DNA of 64,000 nucleotides from Bacteroides caccae (GTDB lineage Bacteria > Bacteroidota > Bacteroidia > Bacteroidales > Bacteroidaceae). The translations under genes and the position numbers were made by a program. The stretch lies in the NCBI RefSeq assembly GCF_002222615.2, contig NZ_CP022412.2:2976001-3040000 (forward strand). The letters are read 5' to 3'. Below the pieces are notes generated by a model. It was not told the origin of the DNA, searched no databases, and saw only the letters and a program-made list of their open reading frames with translations. Of this stretch, positions 7,870 through 15,369 are shown in pieces (positions within the stretch are counted from its first letter, which is position 1; every line of letters begins with the position of its first letter).

Positions 7870-8991
7870 ATGAAGATTGCCATTATTCAAGAATGGTTAG
7901 TAACCGTTGGCGGTTCAGATAAAGTAGTCAAAGCTATTGCGGATGTTTTTCCTGGCGCAGATATTTACACTCTAGTTGCTAAAAAACAAGTTTGTGATGA
8001 ATTAGGAATTGATTGGAATAAAGTCCATACATCATTCATTCAGAAGTTGCCTTTAGGAGTAAAGAAACATAGAATGTATCTGCCTATATTTCCGTTTGCG
8101 ATAGAACAGTTTGATTTACGAGGATATGATATTATTATCTCATCTTCTCATGCTGTCGCGAAAGGAGTTCTGACCAAAGCGGATCAATTACATATCTGTT
8201 ATTGTCATTCTCCTATCCGTTATGTATGGGATATGTATCATGAATATTTGGAAGAATCAGGGTTAGCGAAAGGCTTGAAAGGTTATTTGGCTAAATATAT
8301 GCTTCATCGTATTCGCAAATGGGATTTGATATCTAGTTTTCGTGTAGACTATTTTATTAGTAATTCCGATTACGTAGGGCGTCGAATTCAAGAGACTTAT
8401 AGACGGGATGCTGTAACAATCCATCCTAATATTGATATTTCTAATTTTGATTTATGTGTAGAGAAAGAAGATTTCTATTTAACTAGTAGTCGTTTGGTAG
8501 GGTATAAGAAAATAGATCTCATTGTCGAAGCTTTCAGTCATATGCCGGATAAAAAGTTGATAGTAATTGGTGGCGGTCCTAATTTAGAAAAGATATGCAA
8601 GATTGCCGGTCATAATGTAACTGTCATGGGATATCAACCATTTGCCGTATTAAAAGAAAAGATGCAGAAAGCTAAAGCCTTTGTTTTTGCGGCAGATGAG
8701 GATTTTGGTATGATTCCGATTGAAGCACAATCATGTGGAACTCCTGTAATTGCTTATGGTAGAGGTGGCTCTTTGGAAACAGTGAAGGACGGAACAACAG
8801 GGCTTTTCTTTTATGAACAGACTGTGGAGGCGATTATTGACGCAGTGAAAAGATTTGAAAATCAAGAAATCCCATTTGACCCTAAGACAATACGTAATCA
8901 TGCGGAGACTTTTTCGGAAGAACGTTTTAAAAAGGAAATAAAGGAGTTTGTAGAGTTAAAATATAATGAATTTAATCATCTAGTGAAATGA
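7870..8991 (+). CDS. glycosyltransferase family 4 protein (WbaZ-like)
   Basis: GT4 enzyme of 373 residues resembling WbaZ/RfbZ mannosyl-type transferases. It begins MKIAIIQEWLVTVGGSDKV, contains ICYCHSPIRYVWDMYHEYL (a motif strongly associated with this branch), YFISNSDYVGRRIQ and the donor-site motif DEDFGMIPIEAQSCGTPVIAYGRGG, in which the E-x7-E motif is present. Its last codons overlap the following epimerase gene by four bases (ATGA). Base composition rises slightly in GC from here, closer to the chromosomal core than the genes before it. This gene and the epimerase may be a more widely shared end of capsule loci; the sugar specificity is a guess. Confidence 0.86.
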   Translation: MKIAIIQEWLVTVGGSDKVVKAIADVFPGADIYTLVAKKQVCDELGIDWNKVHTSFIQKLPLGVKKHRMYLPIFPFAIEQFDLRGYDIIISSSHAVAKGVLTKADQLHICYCHSPIRYVWDMYHEYLEESGLAKGLKGYLAKYMLHRIRKWDLISSFRVDYFISNSDYVGRRIQETYRRDAVTIHPNIDISNFDLCVEKEDFYLTSSRLVGYKKIDLIVEAFSHMPDKKLIVIGGGPNLEKICKIAGHNVTVMGYQPFAVLKEKMQKAKAFVFAADEDFGMIPIEAQSCGTPVIAYGRGGSLETVKDGTTGLFFYEQTVEAIIDAVKRFENQEIPFDPKTIRNHAETFSEERFKKEIKEFVELKYNEFNHLVK

Positions 8992-9956
8992 GTTATTTTA
9001 TATTTGGCGGTTCAGGTTTTATCGGTACACACCTCGTTACTCTAATTAATAATCTATATCCGGTTACTCCAATTTATAATCTGGATATTGTGGAGAATAG
9101 CCATGAAGGTAAATCTACGTATATCAATTGTGATGTTCGTTCTGATATAAACGTTGATGTTCCGATTACCTCAGAAGACGTTATCTTTAACTTTGCAGCC
9201 GTTCATCGTACCCCGGGACATCCGGATCAGGCTTATTTTGAGACAAATATTCGTGGTGCGGAGAATGTATGCGCTTTTGCGGAGAAATTCGGGATAAAGA
9301 AAATCGTTTTTACCAGCTCCATAGCTCCTTATGGTGCAGCTGAAGATTTGAAAACAGAAGACACACTTCCTACTCCGAACACCCCTTATGGGATTTCTAA
9401 GTTGGTAGCCGAAAAGATACATACGGTCTGGCAGGCTAAAAAGCCGAACGAACGACAGCTTACTATTGTTCGTCCGGGTGTGGTATTTGGTAAAGGGGAA
9501 AACGGTAACTTTACTCGTTTGTATTGGGGGATCCGCGGCGGTAAATTCTTTTATCCGGGTCGTAAAGATACGATTAAGGCTTGTATTTATGTGAAAGAGC
9601 TGGTTCGCTTTATGCTCTATCGGTTGGAGAATCATAATGAAGGGGTAGAGTTGTATAACTGTACATTTGAACCGGCTTTTACTATTGAACAAATAGTTGA
9701 AACGATGAAAAAAGTTACGGGGATTCAGCGTACTATTGTCAAGGTGCCGGGAAGTCTTTTGCTGACAGCTGCAAGTATTGTGGGTCCGTTAGGAGGAAAA
9801 GCTTTAGGCATTTGTCCGGCTCGCGTCAAAAAGTTAATGATTTCTACTAATATCTGCGGAAAGAAATTGGCTGATTCTGGGTATAAGTTTCATTATACAT
9901 TTGAGGAAGCAATAAAGGATTGGTATAGAGATAATGATAATCTATACCTGAAATGA
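8988..9956 (+). CDS. NAD-dependent epimerase/dehydratase (extended SDR)
   Basis: Extended short-chain dehydrogenase of 322 residues. The dinucleotide-binding motif is GGSGFIGTH (residues 7-15), there is a serine-rich catalytic strand FTSSIAPYG, and the catalytic pair is Y134-x3-K138 in PYGISK. VRPGVVFGKGENGNF contacts the sugar nucleotide in this family. It probably makes or interconverts an NDP-sugar for capsule synthesis. The start codon overlaps the upstream glycosyltransferase stop (ATGA). It is the last intact capsule gene. In related loci a WecA/MraY-like initiating transferase often follows such an epimerase (from memory); none is present here. Confidence 0.88.
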   Translation: MSYFIFGGSGFIGTHLVTLINNLYPVTPIYNLDIVENSHEGKSTYINCDVRSDINVDVPITSEDVIFNFAAVHRTPGHPDQAYFETNIRGAENVCAFAEKFGIKKIVFTSSIAPYGAAEDLKTEDTLPTPNTPYGISKLVAEKIHTVWQAKKPNERQLTIVRPGVVFGKGENGNFTRLYWGIRGGKFFYPGRKDTIKACIYVKELVRFMLYRLENHNEGVELYNCTFEPAFTIEQIVETMKKVTGIQRTIVKVPGSLLLTAASIVGPLGGKALGICPARVKKLMISTNICGKKLADSGYKFHYTFEEAIKDWYRDNDNLYLK

Positions 9957-10065
9957 TTTTTTGAGAATGAAAGTGGTATAAAATAAAATGTTGAGATGTA
10001 ATTAGCACTTAGAGTGTTTGTATGTGAGATGAAGAGAATGTAGGTCCCTAGTTTCATGTTAACGC

Positions 10066-10179
10066 ATGATTCTCCTACATTACATAGATTGGAAAGAGTA
10101 CGACGGTACCTTTCCGGTCTATAACCCCGGCACCGGGGGGTATCCGGTGTTAATTTCCCACGATATCAACGGTCTGTGA
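10066..10179 (+). pseudogene. short ORF, possible gene remnant at the capsule boundary
   Basis: A 37-codon frame starts ATG at 10066 and contains YDGTFPVYNPGTGGYPVLIS, which looks like real protein (mixed hydrophobic and polar, Gly/Pro turns) rather than random AT-rich translation. The DNA turns abruptly GC-rich from about 10080, exactly where this stretch begins. No family is recognised. The most likely reading is the surviving end of a gene destroyed when the capsule cassette was exchanged; a functional microprotein is possible but unsupported. The 290-base gap between the epimerase and the amidase otherwise holds only hairpins. Confidence 0.3.
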
Positions 10180-10196
10180 AGATAGTTGATATTTTT

Positions 10197-10249
10197 AACA
10201 AAACAAACAGCTGCGGGAGACAGTATTACACTGCCTCCCGTAGCTGTTT
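10197..10249 (-). terminator. terminator hairpin after the amidase gene
   Basis: Arms 10206-10223 (AACAGCTGCGGGAGACAG) and 10231-10248 (CTGCCTCCCGTAGCTGTT) pair over 18 positions with two mismatches. Read on the minus strand the hairpin starts at the amidase stop codon and is followed by the T-rich stretch TTTGTTTTGTTAAAA. A convincing intrinsic terminator for the amidase-smalltalk-HU unit. Confidence 0.75.
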
Positions 10250-10661
10250 ATATATTAGAATACTCCTTTGTGCAGCTAAAGCACGGGCACTCCTTCATCG
10301 GATTCAAATCATGGTGCCCCACGATCAACGCTTTCGGAAACTGCCTGCGCAGTTCGCGTAATAGAGCCAGCAGGGAACCCCGTTGTTCAAGCGTTCGAGT
10401 ATCCTTCGGGCAACAGTCAGCATCCAGTCCTCCTTCGTAGCAGATACCTATCGAGTGGGAGTTGTGGTTACGGCAGTGTGCCCCGACCTTTTCGAGAGGA
10501 CGGCCACGGTGGATCTCTCCGTCGCGTGTAATGTAGAAATGATAGCCGATGTCGCGGAATCCCCGGTGGAGGATGTGGTCCAGTCGGCAGGCTTCCGCCG
10601 AAAGGGATTTCCCCTCCGGCGTGGCACTGCAATGAATGATAATCAGTGTGATAGTTCTCAT
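10248..10661 (-). CDS. N-acetylmuramoyl-L-alanine amidase (Amidase_2, T7-lysozyme-like)
   Basis: Predicted zinc amidase cleaving the lactyl-amide bond between muramic acid and L-alanine in peptidoglycan. The 137-residue protein shows IIIHCSATPEGKSL (first zinc histidine), HFYITRDGEIHRGRPLEKVGAHCRNHNSHSIGICYEGG (cited in part as the core Amidase_2 strand set), and GHHDLNPMKECPCF carrying the second histidine and the cysteine ligand. It has no signal peptide and phage-lysozyme length, so it may need another route to reach the wall. ATG at 10661 is chosen because it lies 4 bases after the stop of the smalltalk gene; a GTG at 10694 would overlap that gene. Amidases of this kind recur beside Bacteroides capsule loci. 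Confidence 0.87.
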   Translation of the reverse strand: MRTITLIIIHCSATPEGKSLSAEACRLDHILHRGFRDIGYHFYITRDGEIHRGRPLEKVGAHCRNHNSHSIGICYEGGLDADCCPKDTRTLEQRGSLLALLRELRRQFPKALIVGHHDLNPMKECPCFSCTKEYSNI

Positions 10662-10665
10662 CAGC

Positions 10666-10773
10666 TTACATACAGCTTTGCACTCCGAGCACACCCCCTA
10701 TGGCGGTGGCGACAGTAATGATAATTTTGAGAACCAGGCTCCATACGGAGCGGCGTGACGATGAATTGCTCAT
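10666..10773 (-). CDS. smalltalk family small protein (35 residues)
   Basis: A 35-residue frame, MSNSSSRRSVWSLVLKIIIT to a final GVQSCM. It has a basic serine-rich start, one hydrophobic helix with an IGGVLG core, and a cysteine two residues from the end. This matches what I remember of the Bacteroidales 'smalltalk' proteins, tiny membrane peptides normally encoded next to the amidase found here. Its stop is 4 bases before the amidase start and its own start is 25 bases after the HU-like stop, so the three are probably one transcript. Function is unknown; a membrane-active, holin-like partner for the amidase is a speculation suggested only by size, topology and position. Confidence 0.75.
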   Translation of the reverse strand: MSNSSSRRSVWSLVLKIIITVATAIGGVLGVQSCM

Positions 10774-10798
10774 AATTTATTTTTTTAAGGTTAAGAAA

Positions 10799-11281
10799 TT
10801 AGACTGACGGATCAGGAGTCACTCCACCGCCGCCCGGGTTGGGATTCGGCGTATTACCGGAACCACCTCCTTCGATAGTCGGCTTCTGATACTCCGCTTG
10901 CTGCTTCAGTTGGCTGTCGAGTTTCAGGTTGGTAGTCGAGAGGTTACCGGTGGCACGTGCTTTGAGGCGCATACCGGTGATATTCTTCTCCAACGAAAAA
11001 TCCTCCAGCGTTTCGGCTGCCTTACTGCGGATTCCCACACCGAAAATGGCGAGATCGTCAATTTTCACACTCTTGCCGTCGAGCAGCAATTCCTTGATAC
11101 AGTTCACCATGTCGGTGAGTACACCTTTGATGACACCGCTCGAATACGGTGAATTGTGTTTCGACATGTGTTCGGCGAGCTTGGCCAGATCGAATGTCTC
11201 GTCGCTTACCGCACGGGCGAACCACTTGCCCGCATTCACACCTTTCTTCTGCTGGTTCTGATAGATTTTGTAACGAATCAT
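10799..11281 (-). CDS. HU-family (HU-HIG-like) DNA-binding protein
   Basis: 160 residues from the ATG at 11281 (MIRYKIYQNQQKKGVNAGKW); an upstream start at 11308 adds nine residues without clear support. Residues 1-125 form the Bacteroidales HU/IHF-like domain: an N-terminal strand, the helical pair FDLAKLAEHMSKHNSPYSSGVIKGVL, then beta-arm-like stretches (VKIDDLAIFGVGIRSKA). The last 30 residues are a glycine/proline/asparagine-rich tail (GGGSGNTPNPNPGGGG). Such single-domain HU-like proteins are abundant in Bacteroides, often beside the amidase and DUF4248 genes. It likely bends DNA or acts as a local nucleoid protein. The gene is divergent from DUF4248 across a palindrome-rich gap. Confidence 0.83.
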   Translation of the reverse strand: MIRYKIYQNQQKKGVNAGKWFARAVSDETFDLAKLAEHMSKHNSPYSSGVIKGVLTDMVNCIKELLLDGKSVKIDDLAIFGVGIRSKAAETLEDFSLEKNITGMRLKARATGNLSTTNLKLDSQLKQQAEYQKPTIEGGGSGNTPNPNPGGGGVTPDPSV

Positions 11282-11342
11282 AACACTATAAATTAAAGGG
11301 TTAAACATATTGTCGTGGGGAGCTGTTTCCCTTCCGACGATA

Positions 11343-11350
11343 CAAAGATA
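11343..11350 (-). promoter_or_regulatory. putative -7 box of the HU-smalltalk-amidase unit
   Basis: Reads TATCTTTG on the minus strand, matching the Bacteroides TAnnTTTG box, 62 bases upstream of the HU-like start. No good TTTG is found at the expected -33 distance; that interval is instead occupied by overlapping palindromes (11376-11390). Confidence 0.5.
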
Positions 11351-11375
11351 ACACCCCGTAATCCCGGAAAATCAG

Positions 11376-11390
11376 TTGTATACAATTGTA
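11376..11390. promoter_or_regulatory. overlapping palindromes, operator-like
   Basis: TTGTATACAA (11376-11385) overlaps TACAATTGTA (11381-11390); both are perfect 10-bp palindromes. They sit at the place where the -33 element of the minus-strand promoter should be. A regulator bound here could control the HU-like operon and possibly the divergent DUF4248 gene. Two copies of GTCGGTTA (11401-11408 and 11421-11428) follow at a 20-base step. The function is inferred from symmetry and position only. Confidence 0.4.
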
Positions 11391-11466
11391 TGCGGTTGTT
11401 GTCGGTTAAGGACAGTAACGGTCGGTTATTCAACGGAAAAGCGTAGGAAATGTGAAGGCTTTTTGT

Positions 11467-11474
11467 TACATTTG
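11467..11474 (+). promoter_or_regulatory. putative -7 box upstream of the DUF4248 gene
   Basis: TACATTTG, a full match to the Bacteroides TAnnTTTG box, 27 bases before the DUF4248 start. The -33 region is not TTTG-like, so an activator or alternative -33 contact may be used. Confidence 0.5.
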
Positions 11475-11501
11475 TAGCTAATAATTTAAAACTTATCCAT
11501 T

Positions 11502-11720
11502 ATGAAAGAATTCACGATACGTGCTTATGGACGCATGGAACTGGCGCAACTTTATTCTCCCGAACTGACCGATATTGCCGCATATCGAAAGATGAAGAAA
11601 TGGATCGAACGGTGTCCCGGACTTCAGCAACGCCTGTATGATCTGGGCTACCAACCCGAACACCGTTCTTATACACCATTGGAGGTGAGAGTGATTGTGG
11701 ATGCATTGGGAGAACCTTAG
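11502..11720 (+). CDS. DUF4248 domain-containing protein
   Basis: 72-residue cytoplasmic protein recognised as DUF4248 from the layout FTIRAYGRMELAQLYSPELT, KMKKWIERCPGLQQRLYDLG and RSYTPLEVRVIVDALG. The helical arrangement with a C-terminal 'TPLEVRVIVDALG' helix resembles a small winged-helix or excisionase-like fold, which would suit DNA binding, but this is inference. It is monocistronic on the + strand, between the HU-like and DUF3987 genes on the minus strand, and ends in a long symmetrical hairpin. Family function is not established. Confidence 0.85.
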   Translation: MKEFTIRAYGRMELAQLYSPELTDIAAYRKMKKWIERCPGLQQRLYDLGYQPEHRSYTPLEVRVIVDALGEP

Positions 11721-11757
11721 AGGGATTCGCTTTAGGATAACAAAAGCACCGCTTTAA

Positions 11758-11804
11758 GACGGCTAAAGCATAGCTTTAAGCACTCTAAAGCTATGCTTTA
11801 CGTC
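11758..11804. terminator. long symmetrical hairpin between convergent DUF4248 and DUF3987 genes
   Basis: TAAAGCATAGCTTTA (11764-11778) and TAAAGCTATGCTTTA (11786-11800) are exact reverse complements with a 7-base loop, and GACG...CGTC extends the stem across a 2-base bulge. It is symmetrical, so it can serve transcripts from both sides. The GCTTTA hexamer also occurs at 11729 and 11751, making an iterated GCTTTA cluster rather than a simple terminator. No clean T-tract follows, hence the moderate confidence. Confidence 0.5.
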
Positions 11805-11879
11805 TTACAAGATACAACGTCTTACAACACACACTACTGTGGTTTCGGGTACAGCAGGTACACTTTTCCGGGGGCTCTC

Positions 11880-13715
11880 TTACGCACGCACACGCGCGCG
11901 AGCAATCATATAGTTTCCTTTGCCGTCTACGTGAACCAGATCTCCGTAGTCTACCAGACGTTTCAGCCAGATGAGCGCGGTGTTCTCCTTAATACCCATG
12001 ACAGCTGCCTGCTCTCGTACCTGTTTGCGGGTAAACGTGGTCCCCAGTTTCATGAAGAAAAAATCACGCTCGACGTTTGCCCGGCGACTGATTTCTGTGG
12101 GAGGAAGGAAAGAAAGTATATGCATGGCATGGCAGTAGAGGGGCTCGGCAAGTTGGAGCACCGCTTTGAAATCACTCGGAGTGATCTTGACATCCCAGCG
12201 GGTGATGATGCCGTCTTTGATATTGTCATCGGGAATCTCCTTGTCCGGAGTCAGGAGAGGGGTAGAAGATGCTTTGAGTTGATAGGGCTGTGCGCTTTCG
12301 AGCGCACGCAATACAGCCACTTCCGCCATGATACGGCATGTGTTGACACCCAGACGGGCCACGAAACTATACATCTCATTCCCGTTGGCTATACCCGAAC
12401 GGGTGAAAAGGGCAGAGAATAGAGTGTCAAATTCTTGTTTCTGCTCGTCGGTGAGCCGGAGTGTGTGGAGACCGTGTGCCTTCAGTAAGTCCAGTTTCTT
12501 TTTCCAATCCAATCCTATGGTGGTGAATATCTCTTCTATGTCTATGTCTCCTGTCGTAAACTGGCTTACCCACTGCCAGATACCGGGCATATAGTAGAAC
12601 AGTTGGCGGGAGAAAAGCCCGTTTTCCGCCGAAGGGATGAGGGCTTTTACCTGCGCCGGAGTTCCGGAAAGCAGGACGGAGAGGTAGCTTTTTTTAATTT
12701 CTCGGTATTCCTGGTCGGTACGGCGGTTGTAAGACAAACGGTCGTGGTCGAATGCTTTGCGCAGGGTGTCGCTCCAGTGTCCGTAATCCGATCCTATGGC
12801 GGTGGACAGGGTATCCGCTTCGGACTCACAGATAAATCCTGTTCCGTTGGCATCCATGATGTTTTGCAGAATGCCGGTGCCGGTATTGTTGCCCGCGATG
12901 AGGAACATTTTGTTGGCCGGTATTTGCGGGGCGTCTATTTTAGAACGTTCCTTGCCCATTGCTTCGTAGGCGGCTTTGGCTTTTTTGTAGGCTTTTATTT
13001 CTTCGGCCCATTCGGCGCGGAGCTGGTCATGGATAGGATCCACAAGCAGCCGTATGGATGACAGGGCACTTTTTCCGGAAGCAGGGAGAGCTATAATGAA
13101 ACTTTGCATGCAGGGGGACTGGAGTTTACCGCCATAAGGACACCGTACATACCGTTCCATGCAAGAACCCAGAGCGGTCAGTGCTCCCAATAGCATGACA
13201 TCGTTCTGTGCGTCGGTACTTCCGTAACTCATAATACGTTGCAGGAGTTCCGGCCAGTCGGCTGCCGGAAAGGTGGGTAGCGGCTGTTTGGGTTCGCTAC
13301 CCGGCAACAGTTCCTCAGACTCCGGACTCTCGCTATTGTATACCTTATTACGCGCGCACGTGTGTGCGGAAAGTTTTTGCGCTGTACCTGCTGTACCTTT
13401 TGTACCTGTCCGGCTGTTTGCAACCTCCTCTTTGCGGACGGTAACTCCTGCCGCTTCGGCGAGATAGAACACCGTGCCCAGATGCATATCCCCATGATTG
13501 GCAGTGAGTGCGTTGGAGAATATCCGTTCGGCGTGTTCGCGTTGGTATTTGGCGGAAACCCGGCACAAGCGGTGGAAAAAGTCGCGTCCCTCTTCGCCGC
13601 AATCGGTTGCAATGGCGAACGCCAGGTGTACGTATTCGATGTAAGTGGGGGCAATGTCAGCCTTGGCTGTTTCTACTGCCTCCGTGAGGCGGCGTAATGA
13701 TTCAAGTTCATTCAT
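11880..13715 (-). CDS. DUF3987 P-loop protein with N-terminal PriCT-2-like region
   Basis: 611 residues. Residues about 10-95 resemble a PriCT-2 primase C-terminal domain (EYVHLAFAIATDCGEEGRDF). Residues about 145-480 are DUF3987 with Walker A ALPASGKSALS (Lys 215, Ser 216) and a later acidic CESEADTLS segment that could supply a Walker B-like role. The C-terminal 60 residues (FTRKQVREQAAVMGIKENTA...GDLVHVDGKGNYM) look like a winged helix. The start overlaps the VirE_N gene stop by 4 bases, so the two are translationally coupled. Known or suspected role of the family: ATPase/helicase partner of a primase in plasmid, phage or satellite replication. Here no replication origin or integrase is visible, so a domesticated role linked to the capsule locus is possible. 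Confidence 0.83.
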   Translation of the reverse strand: MNELESLRRLTEAVETAKADIAPTYIEYVHLAFAIATDCGEEGRDFFHRLCRVSAKYQREHAERIFSNALTANHGDMHLGTVFYLAEAAGVTVRKEEVANSRTGTKGTAGTAQKLSAHTCARNKVYNSESPESEELLPGSEPKQPLPTFPAADWPELLQRIMSYGSTDAQNDVMLLGALTALGSCMERYVRCPYGGKLQSPCMQSFIIALPASGKSALSSIRLLVDPIHDQLRAEWAEEIKAYKKAKAAYEAMGKERSKIDAPQIPANKMFLIAGNNTGTGILQNIMDANGTGFICESEADTLSTAIGSDYGHWSDTLRKAFDHDRLSYNRRTDQEYREIKKSYLSVLLSGTPAQVKALIPSAENGLFSRQLFYYMPGIWQWVSQFTTGDIDIEEIFTTIGLDWKKKLDLLKAHGLHTLRLTDEQKQEFDTLFSALFTRSGIANGNEMYSFVARLGVNTCRIMAEVAVLRALESAQPYQLKASSTPLLTPDKEIPDDNIKDGIITRWDVKITPSDFKAVLQLAEPLYCHAMHILSFLPPTEISRRANVERDFFFMKLGTTFTRKQVREQAAVMGIKENTALIWLKRLVDYGDLVHVDGKGNYMIARARVRA

Positions 13716-14362
13716 TTTTTTATAGATTGAGAATTAATAATGTTACGAAATAATGCATCCGGATCGTAATTGAGGAAACAGGCCCTTACGAGGTCTTTTC
13801 CCGAACAGTCCACGCCTTTCGAGGCATTTCTGCCAGAATTGTCAGGTTCCGGGCCGTATGCCATTTCGACATACTGCATGGCTTTGTTCATACTTTCCGT
13901 GATATTTTGTGCTTCGTCTTCGGGATACAGCGTTCCGGAAGGGACGAAAGCCTTCACTCCCCGGCCGCTCGGACTGACATACGTGAGCACGGGGCAGAGG
14001 AAGGGATCATCGAATAGCAGACGGCGCATACTGACGGCTTCGTCGTAGGAGTCGAGGTTGTCCACATCTATCACGACCAGCCCGGAAGGGGATACGAAAC
14101 ACTTGCTGTTGCGGCGTGTGAAGGTGCCGCAGGGTGTCACGTAAGGCAGCAGTGTCGCTTTGGCAGTCCGCATGTCCGGAGCGTTGCGTACCTGAGCGGT
14201 CAGGAGTTTGAGATTCTCGTTGCAGGTAATCATTTGGAAGACCTGCTCCACGGAGACTTCGCAGAAGGGGAGGAGCGTGGGAGGAGTAACCATTCGTCCC
14301 TGTTCGTTCCTGACAGGAGCGATAGGTGGCATGAAATATGACATTCTGTACTGGTTTGGCAT
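13712..14362 (-). CDS. VirE_N (BT4734/BF3469-type) primase-like protein
   Basis: 216-residue protein of the VirE N-terminal family, related to archaeo-eukaryotic primases. The acidic catalytic motif is VVIDVDNLD (Asp 99 and 101), followed by YVSPSGRGVKAFV (120-132), the nucleotide-binding strand-turn of this fold, and a C-terminal CSGKDLVRACFLNYDP signature containing the conserved R-x-C-F/FxSYDP-like ending. It overlaps the DUF3987 gene by 4 bases. Together the pair is equivalent to a split primase-helicase of mobile elements. It is divergent from a tiny helix-turn-helix gene across a 173-base gap containing an inverted repeat. Confidence 0.85.
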   Translation of the reverse strand: MPNQYRMSYFMPPIAPVRNEQGRMVTPPTLLPFCEVSVEQVFQMITCNENLKLLTAQVRNAPDMRTAKATLLPYVTPCGTFTRRNSKCFVSPSGLVVIDVDNLDSYDEAVSMRRLLFDDPFLCPVLTYVSPSGRGVKAFVPSGTLYPEDEAQNITESMNKAMQYVEMAYGPEPDNSGRNASKGVDCSGKDLVRACFLNYDPDALFRNIINSQSIKK

Positions 14363-14458
14363 AATCTTTGTTGTTTACGGGTCAAAAACTTTTCTTCTTT
14401 CAAAACGTGCTTGATTTTCAAAACACGACGTGAAACTACGAAAAACAAAAAAATAGAC

Positions 14459-14478
14459 GGTTCTGATATGTCAGAACC
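14459..14478. promoter_or_regulatory. inverted repeat in the divergent gap, possible operator
   Basis: GGTTCTGA (14459-14466) and TCAGAACC (14471-14478) are exact inverted repeats separated by 4 bases, a typical dimeric-repressor half-site layout. It lies between the VirE_N start (minus strand) and the 47-residue HTH-like gene (+ strand, 58 bases downstream). It is too short and lacks a T-tract for a strong terminator, so operator is favoured. Confidence 0.45.
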
Positions 14479-14535
14479 AATGTGAAAATAAATAACATAC
14501 TAAGGTGTATTTTTAACAACTAATAGATATTGAAC

Positions 14536-14679
14536 ATGAAAAAGAACTTCAAACACGTCCTTCTAGGTACTTTTATCGATGAATCGCTTAAATGCGCAAA
14601 CTTGACAATGACTCACTTATGCAAAGAAACCGGTATGGGGAAAGCCAGCTATGAGAATATAAAAAAGGGGAGGATATGA
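14536..14679 (+). CDS. 47-residue HTH/XRE-like mini-protein
   Basis: A small frame beginning MKKNFKHVLLGTF. The stretch LTMTHLCKETGMGKASYENI followed by KKGR lines up with the helix 2-turn-helix 3 core of XRE/Cro regulators (T..eLak.tGmsk.t..niekGr). At 47 residues it holds little more than the DNA-reading helices, so it would have to dimerise or rely on a partner. Its TGA overlaps the ATG of the next small gene (ATGA at 14676-14679), a sign that both are translated. It is divergent from the VirE_N gene with an inverted repeat between them, which suggests local control of the primase operon. Family not firmly identified. Confidence 0.5.
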   Translation: MKKNFKHVLLGTFIDESLKCANLTMTHLCKETGMGKASYENIKKGRI

Positions 14680-14834
14680 AACTGCACTACTACGAATCCA
14701 TTCTGAACTTCTACTGTGACAGTCTGACAGAAGAGGAGCTGCTGGAGAAGATACGCGAATGGACACTGCGGTATCTCTGGTATAGAAAGAAGCGCGAGGA
14801 GGAGGAGGGAAACGAGAATACCCGTGTGCGATAA
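14676..14834 (+). CDS. 52-residue helical mini-protein coupled to the HTH-like gene
   Basis: Starts at the ATG overlapping the previous stop. The sequence begins MKLHYYESILNFYCDSLTEE, continues as an amphipathic helix (ELLEKIREWTLRYLWYRKKR) and ends in a charged EEEEGNENTRVR tail. No family is recognised. The four-base overlap, clean helical pattern and compact charge distribution favour a real gene over chance. As the partner of an HTH-like mini-protein it could be a dimerisation or anti-repressor subunit, but that is speculation. Confidence 0.45.
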   Translation: MKLHYYESILNFYCDSLTEEELLEKIREWTLRYLWYRKKREEEEGNENTRVR

Positions 14835-14907
14835 CGAAAACACAAAAAATAATGTTTGATTATACATAAAAAATACGGGGAATGCTTCGTAGTTCACAAA
14901 TAATGAT

Positions 14908-14915
14908 TAAATTTG
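14908..14915 (+). promoter_or_regulatory. putative -7 box of the rseC-rnf operon
   Basis: TAAATTTG matches the Bacteroides -7 consensus, 29 bases before the rseC start. A weak TTCG lies 18 bases upstream at 14886-14889. It is the only such box found before the seven-gene unit. Confidence 0.5.
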
Positions 14916-14943
14916 CCGCGATTTGTAATGTTGAGTTTGCAAA

Positions 14944-15369
14944 ATGACGAATAATACTATAAAGCATCTGGGTATTGTGGAAAACATACAGGGTTCTCAT
15001 CTGTCGGTGAGGATCGTTCAGACATCGGCTTGCGCGGCTTGCAGCGTGAAGGGACACTGTTCCTCGGCAGACAGCAAGGACAAAATCATAGATATAATTG
15101 ATACTGCTGCGGCTTCCTACCAGGTGGGGGAAAACGTAATGGTGGTCGGCGAAACGTCGATGGGAATGCAGGCGGTGGCCTTGGCATTCATTATCCCTTT
15201 CGTTCTTTTAATTTTTACATTGTTCCTTTTTATGGCACTGATAGAGAATGAACTGTATGCGGCACTTCTTTCTCTGGCTGTCCTTGTGCCTTATTACTAC
15301 ATTTTGTGGCTCAATAAAACGCGACTGAAACAAAAATTTTCATTTACTATAAAACCAATAAATAACTAA
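14944..15369 (+). CDS. rseC: SoxR-reducing/RseC-family membrane protein
   Basis: 141 residues. The N-terminal cytoplasmic domain has the conserved cysteines of RseC (SACAACSVKGHC: Cys 30, 33 and 39), likely a metal or Fe-S site. It is followed by two adjacent transmembrane helices (about 76-98 and 103-121) and a short basic tail. RseC proteins are encoded with rnf/rsx genes and influence reduction of SoxR-type or Rnf redox centres; the exact job in Bacteroides is not known. Only 7 bases separate it from rnfB, so it opens the Rnf operon. Confidence 0.88.
   Translation: MTNNTIKHLGIVENIQGSHLSVRIVQTSACAACSVKGHCSSADSKDKIIDIIDTAAASYQVGENVMVVGETSMGMQAVALAFIIPFVLLIFTLFLFMALIENELYAALLSLAVLVPYYYILWLNKTRLKQKFSFTIKPINN

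Follow-up and report, generated by a model that had tools for sequence, protein, structure and literature searches.

The locus described here raises the question of why a set of genes of phage type should stand between a capsule operon and the rnf genes of Bacteroides caccae. The stretch analysed (the window) is 64,000 nt long (NZ_CP022412.2, positions 2976001-3040000, from a complete 4.57-Mb genome), and the set, called here the cassette or module, encodes an amidase, a smalltalk micropeptide, an HU-HIG DNA-binding protein, a DUF4248 protein, a BT4734-like_N protein (BT4734_N), a DUF3987 P-loop ATPase and the products of two mini-genes (Table 1). An earlier note on this DNA had likened it to a domesticated satellite or replicative module. 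We favour, with modest confidence, a different answer, namely that the stretch holds one copy of a host-kept companion cassette of surface loci in the Bacteroidales together with a capsule-exchange junction, and not a satellite. The cassette is a real and conserved companion of hypervariable surface loci, is not satellite-like, and was found nowhere named; no description of it turned up in the literature searched, which covered few subscription journals, nor did that literature yield an explanation for whole-capsule exchange and phage-type genes beside capsules. Phage-like genes at capsule loci were reportedly noted by Xu and others in 2007.

The genes that the earlier note had read from the DNA are all present, in the places and on the strands it gave them, with Pfam or NCBIfam matches. 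The BT4734_N gene (its VirE_N, an older name) and the DUF3987 gene share an ATGA overlap, as expected for the translational coupling it proposed, and the two overlapping rightward mini-genes exist as open reading frames (ORFs) with relatives at the same place in several other copies. The module lies mainly on the strand opposite the capsule genes, with rseC and the rnf genes starting at 14944. A sharp change in base composition had also been described, and the jump in guanine-plus-cytosine (GC) content is genuine, but the odd one out is the capsule and not the module: at 0.318 the capsule GC lies below that of the module (0.497) and of rnf (0.502), and the capsule is therefore the foreign-looking part. 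The nearest relatives of the window module are Bacteroides loci.

Across 60 genomes of the genus, BT4734_N is matched in 52, DUF3987 in 37, DUF4248 in 49, HU-HIG in 60 and Amidase_2 in 52, although the HU and amidase counts include ordinary relatives, since of 14 control genomes 9 also match PF18291 and 6 match PF01510. The loci compared comprise 40 from the 60 genomes and 47 found by a scan with a DUF3987 alignment. Their recurrent order is replication enzyme, HU, smalltalk and amidase, seen in Bacteroides, Phocaeicola, Parabacteroides, Prevotella and Caecibacteroides with smalltalk undetected in some, and this repetition of order and strands across genera upholds the claim that the families co-occur as a set. 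The core unit is HU-HIG, smalltalk and amidase, and DUF4248 and the mini-genes lie mostly on the opposite strand (for DUF4248, opposite in 52 loci and the same in 19 among loci with a call). Eighty evenly spaced 15-kb control windows from four genomes contain smalltalk 0 times, DUF4248 once and cassette-type HU twice.

The linkage to capsules that had been proposed likewise exceeds chance. Of the 56 modules with enough flank, 19 have two or more capsule markers no further than 7.5 kb from the enzyme, versus 2 of the 80 control windows (Fisher 6e-7), and 36 have at least one, versus 5 windows. Position relative to the capsule is variable, as the earlier note had expected, the module standing 3' of the capsule in the window and in L048-L054, before it in L060 and L063, and inside it in L072, L082 and L093. 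The queries for capsule and RHS markers came from this genome and one RHS locus, and genes unrelated to them are missed. Among the 20 marker queries checked, 18 have surface-polysaccharide or transferase families; the two without a polysaccharide family are L005 12624-14594 and 14675-16216, the latter called a flippase by eye. Two capsule markers are hexapeptide transferases, and capsule markers were counted on the non-rnf side only.

The orientation of the cassette depends on its partner, a sharp rule that any mechanism must explain. In each of the 41 loci that have two or more capsule markers, all of these run antiparallel to the module core; over the 77 loci left after 17 redundant or off-target ones were removed, capsule marker genes are antiparallel 157 times and parallel once, in L066. 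Twenty further Amidase_2 regions, not in the earlier set, were chosen from six genomes among the matches listed. The 79 loci with an amidase call comprise 46 that are capsule-partnered (one marker or more), 11 that are RHS-partnered, one beside a large lipoprotein gene and 21 without an assigned partner. The core is antiparallel in 45 of the 46 capsule-partnered cassettes, the single parallel locus being most likely L066, on one hexapeptide-transferase marker. In contrast, the RHS-partnered cassettes (L028, L032, L039, L043, L326, L328, L331, L333, L336, L340 and L341) carry a same-strand block of HU, amidase and smalltalk whose core is parallel to the RHS genes in 11 of 11, with RHS right after the amidase in those mapped; RHS identity was assigned by Pfam DUF6443 or RHS_repeat for L028, L039 and L043 and by likeness to L028 for the others. 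Relative to the amidase, smalltalk (in L320 a small protein like it) comes first in all 44 capsule cassettes with a call and second in all 10 such RHS cassettes. Fisher values are 7e-11 for orientation and 4e-11 for peptide order, both overstated because the loci share ancestry. HU lies upstream on the same strand in every capsule cassette (46/46), in 10 of 11 RHS cassettes, in the lipoprotein locus (1/1) and in 17 of the 21 without a partner. Sister lineages of the cassette stand before RHS genes and run with them, whereas the capsule ones stand after, in or before the capsule genes and run against them.

Partner type follows the tree of the replication enzymes. With 69 enzymes placed by a quick method that gives long branches, the label 'other surface' changes 3 times versus 12.2 when shuffled, and 'capsule' 11 times versus 19.6. 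The enzyme itself is changeable, and may be AEP-DUF3987 (AEP, archaeo-eukaryotic primase), DnaB, Toprim-DnaB, or none seen. A DnaD-like loader and DnaB precede HU, small peptide and amidase on the same strand in L323 and L325, and a DUF4373-type gene and/or Toprim-DnaB precede the same block, also on the same strand, in L324, L332, L335 and L338; L324, L325 and L332 are antiparallel to all their capsule markers. In L323 and L320 tyrosine recombinases and a large lipoprotein gene, which looks S-layer-like by eye, accompany the order DnaD, DnaB, HU, small protein, amidase.

A second body of evidence concerns the end of the cassette that faces the capsule. The place between rnf and capsule is common to the window and to L048, L049, L050, L077, L091 and L017. 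L048 and L077 match at 95.4% in the cassette versus 90.2% in the rnf-side flank, with 0 bp of capsule-side homology, and L017 and L091 at 93.9% versus 87.2%, with 408 bp of capsule-side homology at 79%. The homology block ends a median of 32 bp before the amidase end (210 pairs, 21 loci). Because some cassettes of different species resemble each other more than their rnf genes do, while the adjoining capsules are unrelated, the amidase end marks a capsule-swap junction, and the pattern is one that allelic exchange of capsule cassettes would give if the module acted as one homology arm. To judge from its synonymous differences, L050 is a mosaic within the module, its DUF3987 gene differing by 0.07-0.11 from those of L017 and L091 and its amidase gene by 0.60-0.61; synonymous distances and mosaics agree with the exchange comparison. 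We infer that a phage-type lysis and replication cassette has been kept by the host and that its end serves as a homology arm in capsule exchange.

The earlier proposal, a satellite or replicative module acting to amplify or mobilise the capsule region, would account for the gene content, in which a primase-helicase and HU accompany an endolysin-like gene, and for the phage-type amidase. The combination of a primase-helicase with small regulators is one that the cassette shares with plasmid and phage primase-helicase modules and with satellites of the phage-inducible chromosomal island (PICI) kind. It differs from them in that integrase, att-like repeats and packaging genes were not seen, in that no viral occurrence was found, and in its fixed site and orientation. 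The absence from the module of integrase and capsid genes had already been remarked on in the earlier note, and the eight module ORFs gave no family match to an integrase or transposase. No flanking direct repeats were found in 9900-15000, where the sole repeat is a local 17-nt tandem pair (11800-11833), and pattern-based scans of IMG/VR returned 0 confirmed relatives of either replication protein. The same rnf-adjacent place is used in six other loci, and an orientation fixed by the partner counts against independent insertions, which should be random. We therefore do not find the satellite proposal supported, and regard it as very improbable.

The amidase family is widespread among phages, with matches in 1,695 phage records, none of which reaches 60% identity. 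The phage-collection matches L095 and L096 are unverified, unannotated faecal scaffolds carrying the enzyme at 61-72%, and the L095 scaffold carries a capsule sugar-transferase gene. Two IMG/VR groups with HU and amidase had suggested a phage origin with the same gene order, a reading that weakened on closer inspection: L282 and L315 show a Mu-like prophage end adjoining a cassette, and L249-L258 and L320 a cassette beside tyrosine recombinases and a large lipoprotein gene. The gene order of L320 is also that of MT838211 (L097). Plasmid carriage was rejected for the two of five plasmid matches examined, H25 lying among chromosomal rnf, dnaB and pheT and H27 in a capsule locus.

The module genes are kept by selection, as nonsynonymous differences are well below synonymous ones (mean dN 0.05-0.15 versus pS 0.44-0.60). 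The amidase matches the T7 lysozyme (1aro) profile at E 1e-35 and also matches phrog_822, a family of phage amidases. In an alignment of 17 rows His21 does not vary, and His127 and Cys136 hardly do. Its true start is probably an internal ATG near 10661, judged from relatives, and from this conserved internal Met no signal peptide is apparent by eye. In BT4734_N, D99, D101 and K137 are invariant (16 rows), and in DUF3987 the P-loop G214-K215 together with E297, E299 and D301. The DUF3987 model has a predicted local distance difference test (pLDDT) score of 74, and its best Foldseek matches are MCM-type AAA+ helicases (E 5e-5, query template modelling (TM) score 0.30), weakly suggesting a helicase-like protein with an MCM/AAA+-like fold. 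The DUF4248 model is confident (pLDDT 91), and a fold search of the PDB gave no significant neighbour for it. Deletion of a DUF4248 gene of Porphyromonas gingivalis, which sits between queG and a lyase gene, gave hyperpigmentation and greater oxidative tolerance (PMC6231650). Both mini-genes are kept in place yet diverge fast; the product of the first is a short, helix-turn-helix (HTH)-like protein by eye, without a family match, and the second is without a family. The HU-HIG clade is said to have been described by Burroughs and others in 2017.

The smalltalk product is a 35-aa hydrophobic peptide with a signal-peptide-like end, for which family scans of the module ORFs gave no holin match. 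A lipobox-like [LVIAGM]x[SAG]C lies within four residues of the C-terminus in 29 of 40 distinct smalltalk peptides, and the other 11 fit an A-x-A-like pattern, which is loose and permissive; 0 of 40 are without either motif. They are possibly free-standing signal peptides with nearly no mature part, which would be unusual. No match to smalltalk was obtained in phage records at E up to 1, and it occurs in 1 of 80 IMG/VR amidase loci (L282, beside the prophage end) and in 0 of 80 control windows.

For the host-kept cassette these properties suggest a mechanism whose biochemical steps, taken alone, we think less likely than not. Smalltalk would be a signal peptide with hardly any mature part and would admit the cytoplasmic amidase to the wall or set the time of its access; HU-HIG, DUF4248 and the mini-HTH protein would control this step; the primase-helicase would act on local DNA; and in some cells remodelling of the surface locus, or release or exchange of its DNA, would go together with opening of the wall. 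A bolder form, which we hold unlikely, is a two-mode system in the service of hypervariable surface loci, built on one core of HU, micropeptide and amidase with a changeable replication enzyme. In the capsule mode the cassette would be antiparallel, with the micropeptide before the amidase and mostly of lipobox type, and in the RHS mode parallel, with the micropeptide after the amidase and mostly of AxA type. Cut by lipoprotein or ordinary signal peptidase, this naked-signal micropeptide would arm the amidase or yield a signal, and the cassette would open the wall and process DNA for release, uptake and swapping of surface loci at its end. If an exchange junction and controlled wall-opening are both true, capsule swapping, phage resistance and release of RHS proteins in the gut would share a component that can be tested by knock-out.

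A related proposal is release of the Type 10 secretion kind, in which wall opening in a few cells, by the amidase together with a small membrane peptide, would let out large products, RHS proteins in one lineage and something related to the capsule in the other. Type 10 systems lie within Tc toxin operons and work through controlled lysis (PMC10847048). Like them and like phage lysis cassettes, the present cassette pairs an endolysin-type hydrolase with an adjacent gene for a small membrane peptide, and its RHS lineage has co-directional genes for large proteins: the arrangement of lysis genes on the same strand as the cargo holds for the RHS lineage (11/11 parallel). However, it does not hold for the capsule lineage (45/46 antiparallel), and no known holin or spanin family matched among the eight module ORFs. 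It adds HU and often a replication enzyme, and the replication enzymes are left unexplained by a secretion role. We judge this reading to have a low probability.

Still less probable is an anti-phage suicide system in which the primase-helicase senses phage replication and smalltalk and the amidase lyse the cell, placed beside capsules since these decide phage entry. BT4734_N proteins do match PADLOC PrimPol models, the gene pair is of lysis type and the partners are surface loci; the PADLOC match covers the domain only, however, and RHS genes, too, have the cassette beside them, arranged differently. Likeness to the CRISPR-associated Prim-Pol and BT4734-like_N proteins extends to an AEP-like domain, with the CRISPR-associated Prim-Pol type B model NF040562 scoring 46 bits, below its cut-off of 200, but in the cassette the partners are DUF3987, HU and amidase.

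The antiparallel arrangement in 45 of 46 capsule cassettes would suit a capsule regulator. HU-HIG, DUF4248 and the mini-gene products would bind the locus, the head-on operon would damp, or be damped by, capsule transcription, and the amidase would be a secondary wall remodeller for export. In P. gingivalis the HU gene PG0121 flanks the K-antigen capsule operon at its end and is co-transcribed with it, and its loss lowers capsule (PMC3969353); a three-gene 'CPS4' of B. xylanisolvens (UpxY, export protein, amidase) was reported down in phage co-culture in strand-specific libraries (PMC12118408). UpxY- and Wza-like genes followed by an amidase are also seen in L093, from another B. xylanisolvens strain, the likeness to CPS4 being putative. 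PG0121 is described as E. coli-HU-like and co-directional with its operon, whereas the cassette carries an antiparallel HU-HIG with amidase, smalltalk and replication genes; a regulatory role leaves the replication genes and the RHS partners unexplained, and in the window hairpins separate the two units. A variant in which capsule read-through silences the core by antisense is conceivable where the module lies inside the operon and is weakened in the window by the two hairpins. Regulation of the capsule seems to us rather unlikely as the main role, though a stronger contender than secretion or suicide.

The orientation rule could in part follow replication. On replichore maps of four genomes, made from 20 sampled windows per genome, scoring by hand gave 9 of 10 full modules with a core head-on to replication; four other DUF3987 matches (1 head-on, 3 co-directional) were excluded as not full modules. 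By third-codon skew at +-60 kb, too, all but one (L047) of the 10 modules sampled have their core on the lagging strand. Fork orientation was nonetheless rejected as the sole cause, as the capsule rule is kept though not head-on in L022, L036, L058 and L092. In L022, not head-on by the map, all flanking ORFs are antiparallel; by local skew L036, L058 and L092 are not head-on, and L072, L074 and L078 weakly so. The RHS cassettes, parallel to their partner, weaken it further. Because capsule loci that are not head-on keep the rule, we take the partner and not the fork as the stricter constraint.

Several observations besides this possible dependence on replication weigh against a host-kept companion cassette with an exchange junction. 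Its function is read throughout from sequence. The DUF3987 frame is broken in six split modules (L022, L066, L069, L077, L088 and L089), and the second cassette of this genome (L006) has an amidase cut by an insertion. In most rnf-site pairs, among them those with the window, the module has diverged further than rnf, as old allelic types would, so that recent exchange is shown for some pairs only; capsule and cassette may also have been exchanged together with the cassette proteins taking no part. In the window itself two hairpins stand between capsule and cassette. A BT4734_N-type gene is on the other strand, and hence outside the operon, in 5 of the 20 extra loci (L326, L327, L337, L339 and L341). 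RHS cassettes are often without an enzyme (6 of 11; one, L326, shows a weak match), 21 of the 79 cassettes have no assigned partner, and L335 is mixed, the nearest of its markers being antiparallel and two that lie further off parallel.

Table 1. Features at the capsule-rnf site and copies of the RNA element; positions refer to the window unless a locus is named.
Feature	Position	Strand	Evidence or remark
Epimerase gene, NAD-dependent	8988..9956	+	Pfam Epimerase 3e-28; last capsule-operon gene, outside cassette
Structured RNA candidate R1	10023..10196	+	Capsule operon 3' end; marks capsule/cassette border, outside cassette
Strong terminator-like hairpin, amidase/capsule gap	10207..10249		Self inverted repeat; -30.6 kcal/mol
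Amidase_2, N-acetylmuramoyl-L-alanine amidase, T7-lysozyme-like	10248..10694	-	E 6e-19; phrog_822 2e-53
Smalltalk/DUF6486 micropeptide	10666..10773	-	NCBIfam smalltalk E 2e-16; one hydrophobic stretch, lipobox-like VQSC end
HU-HIG DNA-binding protein	10799..11308	-	PF18291 2e-14
DUF4248 small all-helical protein	11502..11720	+	PF14053 3e-24
Hairpin between convergent DUF4248 and DUF3987 genes	11764..11800		Perfect 15-nt inverted repeat
PriCT_2 + DUF3987 P-loop ATPase	11880..13715	-	E 7e-75
BT4734-like_N, archaeo-eukaryotic primase-like	13712..14362	-	E 2e-36
Mini-gene 1	14536..14679	+	Homologues at same place in other loci; ORF from 14530, internal ATG 14536
Mini-gene 2, overlapping mini-gene 1	14676..14834	+	Homologues at same place in other loci
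rseC, adjoining rnf genes	14944..15369	+	PF04246 3e-31; fixed neighbour at site
RNA element copy, L006	16033-16206	-
RNA element copies, L042	8208-8384, 8489-8664	+	Element sometimes a tandem pair

The first genes of the capsule operon lie upstream, outside the window, in L005: a NusG-family (UpxY-like) gene, one for an SLBB/Poly_export protein, one with a weak Wzz match and one for a sugar transferase. Inside the window, before the epimerase, the operon encodes an EpsG-like protein as well as acyl-, glycosyl- and hexapeptide transferases. A search of the B. caccae genome gave no UpxZ. The second module of this genome lies at L006 12611-15638, the insertion in its amidase being IS66-like (named by eye). 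A third DUF3987 gene stands elsewhere, in L007 (genome positions 468500-488400), a stretch that also holds tyrosine recombinase-like genes.

We note a conserved element of about 174 nt on the capsule strand, in the gap that separates the final capsule gene from the amidase gene. With a covariance model, 6 of the 60 genomes yield 28 copies scoring over 70 bits; at E 0.001 the count rises to 13 of 60, those beyond the six by weak matches. On 25 distinct sequences 36 of 59 pairs are changed on both sides, above all 500 shuffles, a result that leans towards the model because the alignment was fitted to it. An Rfam search with the element gave chance-level matches only, and an ORF at 10066-10179, considered as a conserved peptide, was rejected as it falls inside the element. 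A same-strand ORF lies upstream, at most 468 nt away, in 25 of 25 copies examined. The ten such ORFs scanned include eight polysaccharide genes, one with weak CarboxypepD_reg matches only and one without a family, and the RNA candidate belongs to the ends of polysaccharide operons rather than to the cassette.

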